From positions 1-64,000 of the forward strand of contig NZ_JACHFJ010000007.1 of assembly GCF_014201825.1 (NCBI RefSeq): a DNA stretch of 64,000 nucleotides. Reading direction: 5' to 3'. The notes beneath the pieces are model-generated. The model did no database searches. It was not told the origin of the DNA and saw nothing but the letters and a program-made list of their open reading frames with translations. Positions 58,729 through 61,548 of this stretch are shown here, piece by piece (within the stretch, counting starts at the first letter, position 1; each line of letters starts with the position of its first letter). A program made the position numbers and the translations under genes. The stretch is from Acidocella aromatica. GTDB taxonomy: Bacteria; Pseudomonadota; Alphaproteobacteria; Acetobacterales; Acetobacteraceae.

Positions 58729-59370
58729 ATGCGGCACGACGACATCTGGCGCGCGATCGACACCCTGGCGGCGGAGCATGGGCTCTCGCCCTCCGGTTTA
58801 GCGCGCAAGGCCGGGCTGGACCCGACCAGCTTCAACATGTCCAAGCGCCGTACGGCGGATGGACGGCTCCGCTGGCCTTCCACCGAGAGCCTGGCGAAAA
58901 TCTTTGCCGCCACCGGGGCGGGAATCGAGGAGTTCACTGCCCTCGTCACGGGCGCGCGCGCCATGCCGGAACTGCGCAAAGGCCGCACCTGGATTCCGTT
59001 AATAGGCATGGCCCAGGCCGGGGCCGAGGGCTTTTTCGACGATGGCGGCTACCCTGCGGGAGCCGGGTGGGACGAGGTGGAAATGCCCGCCACCGCCGAT
59101 GTGAACGCTTATGCCCTAAGCATAAGCGGCGACTCCATGGAGCCGGTGTACCGCGAGGGCGACACCATCATCGTCTCCCCCGCCGCTCCGGTACGCGTGG
59201 GCGACCGCGTGGTGGCCCGTACCACCGAGGGCGCGGTAATGGCCAAGCAGCTCGTCCGCCGCACGGCCACGCGCATCGAGCTGGCCAGCATGAACCCCGC
59301 TTACCCGGAACTGCGCTTCGGAGCGGGCGAAATTCTGTGGATGCACCGCATCATCTGGGCCAGCCAGTAG
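58729..59370 (+). CDS. XRE-type repressor with S24 peptidase domain
   Basis: A 213-residue LexA/CI-like regulator. An N-terminal helix-turn-helix (about 8-62, LSPSGLARKAGLDPTSFN) is followed by a cleavage-type Ala97-Gly98 and an S24 fold with Ser136 (SGDSMEP) and Lys173 (GAVMAKQ). Such proteins self-cleave on RecA activation in phages, but this one has no phage genes around it. It lies divergent from the small 58302 gene and 123 bases before the Roadblock-protoglobin pair on the same strand, so it could control either. Confidence 0.86.
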   Translation: MRHDDIWRAIDTLAAEHGLSPSGLARKAGLDPTSFNMSKRRTADGRLRWPSTESLAKIFAATGAGIEEFTALVTGARAMPELRKGRTWIPLIGMAQAGAEGFFDDGGYPAGAGWDEVEMPATADVNAYALSISGDSMEPVYREGDTIIVSPAAPVRVGDRVVARTTEGAVMAKQLVRRTATRIELASMNPAYPELRFGAGEILWMHRIIWASQ

Positions 59371-59493: not shown

Positions 59494-60378
59494 GTGCACA
59501 ACGCCCATGTAAACGGCGTGTTGCAAGCACTGGTCACCAACACGCCCAGTATCCAGGGCGCCGCCGTCATCCAGGGCGATGGCCAGCTTGTCGCCTGCCA
59601 CCTGCCTCAGAATTTCGACGAATCACGGATCAGCGCCACGGTAACGGCAATGCTGCCCCGCGGGCTGGACCTTGCCGCCGCGCTAAAATGCGGCAAGCTG
59701 GAACAACTGTTGCTAACGGGCGAAATCGGCCATGTGCTGCTGCGCGAGGCAGGCCCGCAGACCATGCTGTGCACGCTGGCTGGCCCGACTGTGCAGATGG
59801 ACACACTGCTCCAGGCCACAGGCAACGCGGCCTCCCGCATCTCCCGCATGCTGTCGTCAATTTCCTTCACGGCTCCATCAACCGGCACACGCAGCCCGGA
59901 GGCGCTGTACGAAGCCGCAGGGTTCACCGAGGCTGACCAGACGCTTGTTACCCAAATCTGGCCCTATGTCCGCACCGCCCTGCCGGGAATCGCCGACCGG
60001 TTCTATCAGGTCCTGGGTGCCGAGCCGCAAATGGCGGCGCTGCTGGCCGGGCGTGTGGAGTCGCTGAAGCGGACTCATCTGACTTGGCTGGAGAGCCTGT
60101 TCTCCGGCGATTACGGGCCGGATTTCATCCGCCGCCAGGAGGAAATCGGCAAGGCGCATACCCGTGCCGGCGTTACCCCGGTGTTCTTTGCCGCCAGCAT
60201 GGCGTTTCTGCGTTCGGTCTTTCCGCCCGCATTGCACGCCTGCATGCCAAGCGAGGAATCGGCCAAGGCCGCAACGGGTGCCGTGCTCCGGCTGCTCACC
60301 TTTTGCCAGCAAATCGTCGACGGAAAATACGCGCAGACGCTCATCCGCCTGGACGAGACCATGGCGAAAGCCAAATAA
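59494..60378 (+). CDS. Roadblock/LC7 - protoglobin fusion protein 1
   Basis: A 294-residue two-domain protein. Residues 5-120 (VLQALVTNTPSIQGAAVIQGDGQL...LEQLLLTGEIGHVLLREAG) look like an MglB-type Roadblock/LC7 domain. Residues 146-285 form a protoglobin/globin-coupled-sensor domain: PGIADRFYQVL, LKRTHLTWLESLFSGDYG, then IGKAHTRAGVTPVFF with likely proximal heme ligand His222. No output enzyme (cyclase, kinase, methyl-accepting domain) is fused. The start is GTG behind AGAGGAG. A paralogue follows after a hairpin. The inferred role is O2, NO or CO sensing relayed to a Roadblock partner, possibly a small GTPase; no such GTPase gene is in the window. Confidence 0.75.
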   Translation: MHNAHVNGVLQALVTNTPSIQGAAVIQGDGQLVACHLPQNFDESRISATVTAMLPRGLDLAAALKCGKLEQLLLTGEIGHVLLREAGPQTMLCTLAGPTVQMDTLLQATGNAASRISRMLSSISFTAPSTGTRSPEALYEAAGFTEADQTLVTQIWPYVRTALPGIADRFYQVLGAEPQMAALLAGRVESLKRTHLTWLESLFSGDYGPDFIRRQEEIGKAHTRAGVTPVFFAASMAFLRSVFPPALHACMPSEESAKAATGAVLRLLTFCQQIVDGKYAQTLIRLDETMAKAK

Positions 60379-60380
60379 TG

Positions 60381-60413
60381 GGCGTTCAGCTCCCGTAGAG
60401 GAGGCTGAGCGCC
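60381..60413 (+). promoter_or_regulatory. Hairpin between the two fusion genes
   Basis: GGCGTTCAGC (60381-60390) pairs with GCTGAGCGCC (60404-60413) with one mismatch, extended by TCC/GGA inside. No T-run follows, so it is more likely an mRNA-processing or stability element than a terminator. Confidence 0.5.
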
Positions 60414-60498
60414 TATTACGTGTCCTCACATTAAAAAAACATTACTGGAAGATAAAAATGACTTCCATCACTTCGAAAATCGCGAATAAATTCGTGAC

Positions 60499-61413
60499 AT
60501 GTCTGTTACACCCCAGAATGCGCTCATACCCCCGGCCGAGATAATCGCCGTCCTCCAGGATCTCATCAGCAGCTCAAGCGCCATTGAGGCCGCAGCCGTC
60601 GTTGCCCGCGACGGAAGGATCGTTGCCCGTGCAACACGCCGTGACGCGGAGGCAGATGCGCTGCATGCCGCCATCGCGGAGCTGCTGGCCCCCGATTCGA
60701 CGGCCATGCGCCAAGTCGCGCTGGGCACGCTGGGGCAGGTTGTGCTCTCGGCGGCGGCGCGGCGGGTGATGATCCGGCAAAGCGGTCCCAACGCGCTGAT
60801 CTGCACGCTCACCGGCGGCCATGGGCGTGGCGGATCGCAAATGCCCTCCATCAGCGGTGCCGCGGCCAAGCTTGCCGACATGGTGCCCGAGCCCCCGGCG
60901 GAACCACGCCCCGTATTCGGGACCAAGCTCGTCCCCGCCGCCACTGCCGTTCCCGAATGCCCGCTCAGCGCCGATGAGCTGTCGCGAATCGTTGCCCTGC
61001 GCCCCTATGTCATCGGCATTCTACCAAGCGTGACCGACAAGGTTTACAACGCCATCGAAGCCGAACCGCAAATGGCCAAGTTCATGGCGAACGGCACCGC
61101 CCGGCTGCGGCAAATGCATCTGGTGTGGCTGGAGAGCCTGTTCTCAGGCGAATACGGACCGGCTTTCGTCCAGCGCCAGCAGGATATCGGCCGCGCCCAC
61201 AGCTTGGCTGGTATTCCACCTGTGCTGTTCGCCGCCAACATGGCGTATCTGCGGGCAATCTTCCCCACCGCCCTGCGAACCTGCCTGGGCGAGGGTGTTC
61301 TAGCGGAAAACGCTATCGGTACCGTGATGCGACTCGTCGATTTCGCCCATGATCTGATCGACACAACATCCGCTGGTTTGATTGCGCGCCTCGGTACACC
61401 GCGCCGGGTTTGA
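60499..61413 (+). CDS. Roadblock/LC7 - protoglobin fusion protein 2
   Basis: A 304-residue paralogue of the preceding gene with the same order: Roadblock-like domain at about 12-105 (IIAVLQDLISSSSAIEAAAV, then VARDGRIVARA), a Pro-rich linker (128-155), and a protoglobin domain at 160-295 with MHLVWLESLFSGEYG and IGRAHSLAGIPPVLF, likely proximal His234. The globin parts of the two proteins are much more alike than the linkers. ATG 60499 has no good Shine-Dalgarno; a 28-codon frame from ATG 60458, with GGAAG upstream, overlaps it and may aid translation. The next feature is tRNA-Val on the other strand. Confidence 0.74.
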   Translation: MSVTPQNALIPPAEIIAVLQDLISSSSAIEAAAVVARDGRIVARATRRDAEADALHAAIAELLAPDSTAMRQVALGTLGQVVLSAAARRVMIRQSGPNALICTLTGGHGRGGSQMPSISGAAAKLADMVPEPPAEPRPVFGTKLVPAATAVPECPLSADELSRIVALRPYVIGILPSVTDKVYNAIEAEPQMAKFMANGTARLRQMHLVWLESLFSGEYGPAFVQRQQDIGRAHSLAGIPPVLFAANMAYLRAIFPTALRTCLGEGVLAENAIGTVMRLVDFAHDLIDTTSAGLIARLGTPRRV

Positions 61414-61473: not shown

Positions 61474-61548
61474 TGGTGGGCGCTACAGGGATTGAACCTG
61501 TGACCCCCACCATGTCAAGGTGATGCTCTACCGCTGAGCTAAGCGCCC
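61474..61548 (-). tRNA. tRNA-Val (GAC)
   Basis: A 75-nt cloverleaf with acceptor stem GGGCGCT/AGCGCCC, encoded CCA, D-arm TAGCTCAGCGGTAGAGCA and anticodon loop CTTGACA (anticodon GAC). Confidence 0.97.

Follow-up and report, generated by a model that had tools for sequence, protein, structure and literature searches.

Roadblock/LC7 (RL) domains are modules that often work with small GTPases, and to our knowledge no input signal has been established for most of the bacterial Roadblock proteins or the small GTPases that they serve. The Cvn conservons of actinobacteria comprise a kinase, a Roadblock protein, a DUF742 protein and a GTPase. Known globin-coupled sensors, for their part, carry a kinase, cyclase or chemotaxis output C-terminal to the globin domain.

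A globin joined to a Roadblock domain has been described as HGbRL of Methylacidiphilum infernorum, an organism that grows at pH 2 (PMC4476040). According to that paper, HGbRL has 274 amino acids and is a proposed heme sensor that relays to its Roadblock/LC7 domain. Its N-terminal globin clusters with HGbI and the flavohaemoglobin-type globins, its operon includes a methyltransferase, and the host genome holds a separate MglB-MglA-like gene pair; the paper calls HGbRL unique to Methylacidiphilum. A preliminary description of the locus studied here knew of no reported heme sensor with a Roadblock output; HGbRL shows that such a combination had been described. The Myxococcus kinase NmpU, which has a protoglobin domain, was considered as a Roadblock-protoglobin precedent and set aside, as the word "roadblock" does not occur in the text examined (PMC6211767).

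In searches of the open PMC literature, a body that mostly excludes subscription papers, we found no description of a protoglobin-Roadblock fusion, nothing on protoglobin with MglB, nothing on Roadblock and GTPases in Acidithiobacillus, and nothing on globin-coupled sensors in Acidocella. Here we analyze two such fusion genes, A and B, in a window of 64,000 nucleotides from Acidocella aromatica, a member of an acidophilic genus.

Results

Tandem Roadblock-protoglobin genes in A. aromatica

Genes A and B follow one another on the same strand (Table 1) and encode proteins that are 35% identical across residues 4-286 of A, in keeping with the tandem duplication put forward in the preliminary description. 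Its domain calls, Roadblock at the N terminus and protoglobin (PG) at the C terminus of both proteins, agree with Pfam and, for A, with Foldseek as well. Pfam assigns residues 10-96 of A to Robl_LC7 (E 1.7e-9, 37.7 bits against a cut-off of 23) and residues 140-282 to Protoglobin (E 2.7e-22, 79.9 bits against a cut-off of 25). The corresponding regions of B are residues 19-104, where the RL match is marginally above the cut-off (E 3.9e-5, 23.7 bits against 23), and residues 156-287 (E 2.1e-16, 60.7 bits against 25). In both proteins, therefore, N-terminal residues 5-120 contain an RL profile match above the Pfam cut-off. Neither protein matched NCBIfam at E 1. In the A. aromatica genome, A and B are the only two RL matches at E 0.001 and account for two of three PG matches. 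The third PG domain (L034:1489-2997) lies within a 502-amino-acid protein that we read as a chemotaxis receptor.

Table 1. Coordinates of genes A and B, their domains, heme-pocket residues and neighbors in the window
Feature	Position	Strand	Basis or remark
S24/LexA-like repressor, neighbor outside the system	58729-59370	+	Pfam
Gene A, Roadblock/LC7-protoglobin fusion	59494-60378	+	294 aa, GTG start; Pfam, AF2, Foldseek
A Roadblock/LC7 (RL) domain	59518-59781	+	PF03259, E 7.3e-10 (profile search, A. aromatica genome)
A protoglobin (PG) domain	59911-60339	+	PF11563, E 1.2e-22 (A. aromatica genome); Foldseek to 2w31
A Tyr171, counterpart of GsGCS TyrB10	60004-60006	+	Alignment
A His195, counterpart of the distal HisE11 of GsGCS	60076-60078	+	Alignment
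A His222 (F8), predicted to ligate heme proximally	60157-60159	+	Alignment with GsGCS
Gene B, Roadblock/LC7-protoglobin fusion	60499-61413	+	304 aa, ATG start; Pfam, AF2
B Roadblock/LC7 domain, weaker match	60553-60810	+	PF03259, E 1.0e-5 (A. aromatica genome)
B protoglobin domain	60964-61359	+	PF11563, E 9.2e-17 (profile search, A. aromatica genome)
B Tyr183, counterpart of GsGCS TyrB10	61045-61047	+	Alignment
B His207, counterpart of the distal HisE11 of GsGCS	61117-61119	+	Alignment
B His234 (F8), predicted to ligate heme proximally	61198-61200	+	Alignment with GsGCS
tRNA-Val (GAC), downstream border	61474-61548	-	tRNA between the pair and the ClC channel gene

Structure models of both proteins (AF2; pLDDT 81.7 for A and 78.5 for B) show a helix, two strands, helices, three strands and a helix, which is the Roadblock order, followed by an all-helical domain; the orientation of the domains is uncertain in both models (pTM 0.56 and 0.49, respectively). 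A Foldseek fold search, run with the A model, matched the Roadblock structures 9jue (TMt 0.83) and MglB 1j3w (TMt 0.72) as well as the globin sensors 2w31 (TMt 0.88) and HemAT 1or4 (TMt 0.82). A sequence search of the PDB likewise matched A to the globin sensors 2w31, 8h17, 5ohe and HemAT and to the Roadblock proteins 9jue and 7f8m, and B more weakly to 2w31, 9jue and 8h17. The best PDB match of B, a WD-40 repeat protein, was taken as spurious because no stretch passes alone.

The pair sits between the S24 repressor gene and tRNA-Val. The S24 gene was found in 32 of the 37 genus genomes searched, some of them without an RL/PG locus, so we do not regard the repressor as a dedicated partner; the ClC channel was set aside as a candidate partner, with the opposite-strand tRNA-Val intervening. 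Among S24 loci taken with 1.5-kb flanks (n = 30), four contain tRNA-Val. In two of these (L071 and L078) the tRNA lies less than 200 bases after the S24 gene, with no match to A or B, in L089 it lies ∼1.2 kb from the S24 gene, again with no match, and in L067 an RL-PG gene stands between the two. Given these arrangements with and without RL-PG in relatives, the spot between the S24 gene and tRNA-Val looks like an insertion site. At E 0.01, A and B had no PHROGs or PADLOC match that would point to a phage or defense origin. A scan of viral contigs with A only, which reaches no further than close relatives, confirmed none of six candidates, and tblastn against plasmids gave nine records with A, none covering 80% of it, and one weak match with the PG protein of locus L112 (below). 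Promoter-like sites were not enriched (1, against a shuffle mean of 1.4) and terminator-like sites numbered 6 (shuffle mean 2.6); no conclusion rests on these.

Heme-pocket residues and selection

Both proteins have a tyrosine and two histidines that align with GsGCS (2w31) at positions that we take to be B10, E11 and F8. The proximal histidines proposed in the preliminary description, His222 of A and His234 of B, both align with HisF8. Across 27 PG domains of Acidocella, the F8 histidine is present in 21, the E11 histidine in 26 and the B10 tyrosine in 26. In the six domains that lack HisF8, the residue reads as lysine in four, although conservation in that part of the alignment is poor, as tyrosine in one (L038_5) and as phenylalanine in one (L051_10). 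Each of the four lysine copies belongs to a pair whose other copy retains HisF8 (L039, L041, L043 and L045). Heme is thus not required by every member. GsGCS is bis-histidyl, going by the title of a work cited in PMC4476040. The nearest relative of A (L037_3, 80% identical) has tyrosine at E11, so bis-histidyl coordination would not be a fixed trait of A.

Compared with their nearest relatives, which is one species pair, A and B have dN/dS ratios of 0.16 and 0.15. By domain, in the same species pair, the ratios are 0.12 (RL) and 0.15 (PG) for A, and 0.24 (RL) and 0.08 (PG) for B. This purifying selection argues that both genes are in use.

Distribution and layouts in Acidocella

Genes in the loci fetched for comparison were called with our own ORF scripts rather than taken from annotation. 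We read an RL/PG locus in 16 of 38 genus genomes, A. aromatica included; G030 is excluded from the 16, as its B-type gene is truncated at a contig end, and L051_10 is counted as a fusion, with weak Pfam RL and PG matches that are both under the cut-off. Layouts vary: RL and PG occur as tandem fusions, as fusions with a long linker, and as separate neighboring genes, in several orientations. The units are mostly paired, whether fused or split. Two PG domains are present in 11 of the 16 loci, and at least two RL domains stand side by side in 15 (one of these RL matches being under the Pfam cut-off). This recurrent adjacency makes a heteromeric sensor formed by A and B plausible. A gene for a chemoreceptor zinc-binding (CZB) domain protein adjoins one RL-PG cluster (L049:10638-11045, - strand).

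The architecture noted in the preliminary description thus recurs as RL-PG fusions in other Acidocella genomes, but it was not seen beyond the genus in an order-wide sample. There, a search with an RL-PG alignment at E 1e-12 matched 12 of 299 genomes, 11 of them Acidocella; the remaining one, from another genus, has an RL match only.

PG, RL and GTPase genes in other lineages

In a phylum-wide sample (398 genomes, E 1e-9, with scoring limited to four candidates in each genome), PG genes of stand-alone size were found outside Acidocella in seven genomes (G397, G442, G474, G407, G478, G669 and G650). An RL gene lies within ∼1.2 kb of PG in five of the seven, four of which are from one genus. By a rough estimate, the probability that a PG gene falls by chance within 1.2 kb of one of the few RL genes in a 3-Mb genome is well below 1%.

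Outside Acidocella, PG and RL were found next to each other at six loci, four of them from one genus, and in five of the six an MglA-like GTPase is less than 2 kb from PG. These five represent three lineages. In the first (L112, L113 and L114, one genus), the order is ODP, RL, PG, a protein of 209-234 amino acids and a small GTPase, where ODP is a member of the oxygen-binding diiron protein family (PF19583) and adjoins RL; at L112, the RL and PG genes run RL-PG-RL-PG-RL, and the PDB matches of the GTPase are Arf-like GTPases and MglA. The other two lineages have the orders GTPase, RL, PG (L121, from G650) and GTPase, a 233-amino-acid protein with no Pfam match, PG, RL (L104, from "Ca. Thiodiazotropha" and added by a separate scan). 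The remaining locus, L115 of the L112 genus, has PG and RL with no GTPase in 16 kb.

RL and GTPase genes also occur together without PG, in three loci of the L112 genus (L116, L126 and L127) and at L119, L123 and L124. Such loci are at least as common among those we fetched, and most genomes of the L112 genus in the phylum-wide sample have RL matches without a stand-alone PG. The PG gene seems to be an optional extra at RL-GTPase loci, and its proximity to the GTPase may simply follow from its proximity to RL.

Other arrangements were seen as well. At L117 (an 11-kb contig), a PG gene without RL or GTPase stands beside two genes that we read by eye as methyltransferases (L117:3095-5519). G669 has three PG genes in a row and a distant RL match. 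Arrays of three protoglobins are found at L105:4410-6537 (Marinobacterium) and L118:7924-10045, and their copies pair between the two arrays in a tree, two pairs being well supported and one having a support of 0.73. In another lineage (L120:7713-8970), a Roadblock domain without a globin match lies beside a relative of the ODP-family gene (60% identical).

GTPase search in Acidocella

The A. aromatica assembly is given as 100% complete and has 29 contigs. Searched with PF00025, it gave one match above the cut-off, a 909-amino-acid frame that we read as translation factor IF-2; PF03029 gave no match at E 0.01, and neither the L112 GTPase nor an Acidocella GTPase matched as a query. The latter query also had no match in 13 of the 16 genomes with an RL/PG locus. 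Three of the 38 genus genomes (G007, G017 and G021) do have a GTPase, found with the L112 and Acidocella queries and with PF03029, which is above its cut-off in two of the three. PF00025 at E 1e-6 matched none of the 38 genomes, compared with 4 of 14 control genomes, so this profile alone would miss these GTPases. In all three species, the MglA-like GTPase (loci L131, L132 and L133) is on a different contig from the RL-PG genes and has small RL-like genes nearby, one of which reaches Robl_LC7 (E 0.0015, under the cut-off); L133 also has a histidine kinase as a neighbor.

Discussion

Our preferred reading, to which we give about an even chance, is that A and B form a heme-based gas or redox sensor pair with a Roadblock dimer as its output, descended from a globin-Roadblock-GTPase ancestor and now acting independently of a GTPase. 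Both proteins would be soluble sensors in which the protoglobin domain holds heme by HisF8 and, like GsGCS, has TyrB10 and HisE11 facing the heme distally. When the heme ligand or oxidation state changes, the signal would cross the short linker and reach the Roadblock domain at the N terminus. These Roadblock domains would dimerize, as homodimers or as a heterodimer, perhaps of A with B, and the dimer would serve as the output surface. Gene order in other lineages suggests that a small MglA-like GTPase was the original target, served by separate globin and Roadblock genes from which the fusions would derive. We favor, with moderate confidence, a GTPase-independent output today because the GTPase is absent or unrecognizable in the A. 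aromatica genome; the present dimer is most likely a switch or scaffold that acts on another partner.

An alternative is that a small Ras-like GTPase of this cell is under the direct control of A and B, as MglA is under that of MglB. The GTPase link made in the preliminary description is strengthened in general, as far as gene order can tell, by the PG-RL-GTPase arrangement in three other lineages, and an MglA-like GTPase is encoded by three Acidocella species. For A. aromatica itself, however, two profiles and two GTPase protein queries found no cognate MglA-like GTPase of the kind that membership in an MglA/MglB system implies, and most Acidocella genomes with an RL/PG locus lack a match as well. 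The partner would then have to be too divergent, located in a gap, or one of the universal GTPases, and we consider direct GTPase control unlikely.

Two further explanations dispense with a signaling pair. The globin might handle or store O2 or NO, with the Roadblock domain merely holding the pair together, and the lack of a dedicated partner gene beside the pair in the window would fit this, as would the F8 histidine retained in most copies. Yet most protoglobin domains that are joined to a further domain serve as sensors, and elsewhere PG and RL accompany GTPase and ODP genes, which makes a role limited to gas handling quite improbable. Alternatively, B or its RL part could be a decaying duplicate that leaves A as the working copy; the marginal Roadblock match of B points this way, as does the loss of HisF8 from one member of the pair in four relatives. 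B nonetheless retains all three pocket residues, and its dN/dS is low overall and lowest in the globin domain, though higher in RL, so that decay of B seems very improbable.

More broadly, PG, RL and an MglA-like GTPase may constitute a recurrent module of the Pseudomonadota, in which the globin would sense gas or redox state, the Roadblock domain transmit and the GTPase act. Acidocella would have fused and duplicated the PG-RL part into sensor pairs, some species having a partner that is probably heme free, and several species, A. aromatica among them, would later have turned the output away from the GTPase. We advance this wider scheme tentatively and think it somewhat doubtful as a whole. 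Even so, a likely heme sensor joined to Roadblock, with split versions near GTPase and ODP-family genes, offers a concrete and testable input for such systems. The split, fused and paired forms, those with a partner that lacks the heme histidine, and those with and without a GTPase make up a natural series for studying how a sensor is coupled to, or uncoupled from, a GTPase.

How, then, does the pair compare with known systems? With GsGCS it shares the globin fold, HisF8 and HisE11, but in GsGCS, HemAT and AfGcHK the known outputs are C-terminal to the globin, whereas the Roadblock domain of A and B is N-terminal. The MglB/MglA systems of Thermus and Myxococcus have the Roadblock fold in common with A and B, and an MglA-matching GTPase lies near RL-PG in another genus; in A and B, by contrast, RL is fused to a globin, and the A. 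aromatica genome yielded no such GTPase. The three Acidocella species with a GTPase and small RL-like genes, together with the kinase at L133, recall the Cvn conservons, although the RL likeness is weak, and the GTPase locus shows no linkage to RL-PG and gave no match in A. aromatica. HGbRL, as described in PMC4476040, resembles A and B in size and in having one globin and one Roadblock/LC7 domain. A proposed globin-Roadblock heme sensor is thus already on record. Neither A nor B, however, has the HGbRL-type layout of an N-terminal globin of the flavohaemoglobin group and a C-terminal Roadblock domain; what sets the Acidocella pair apart is its protoglobin class, its reversed domain order and its two genes in tandem.
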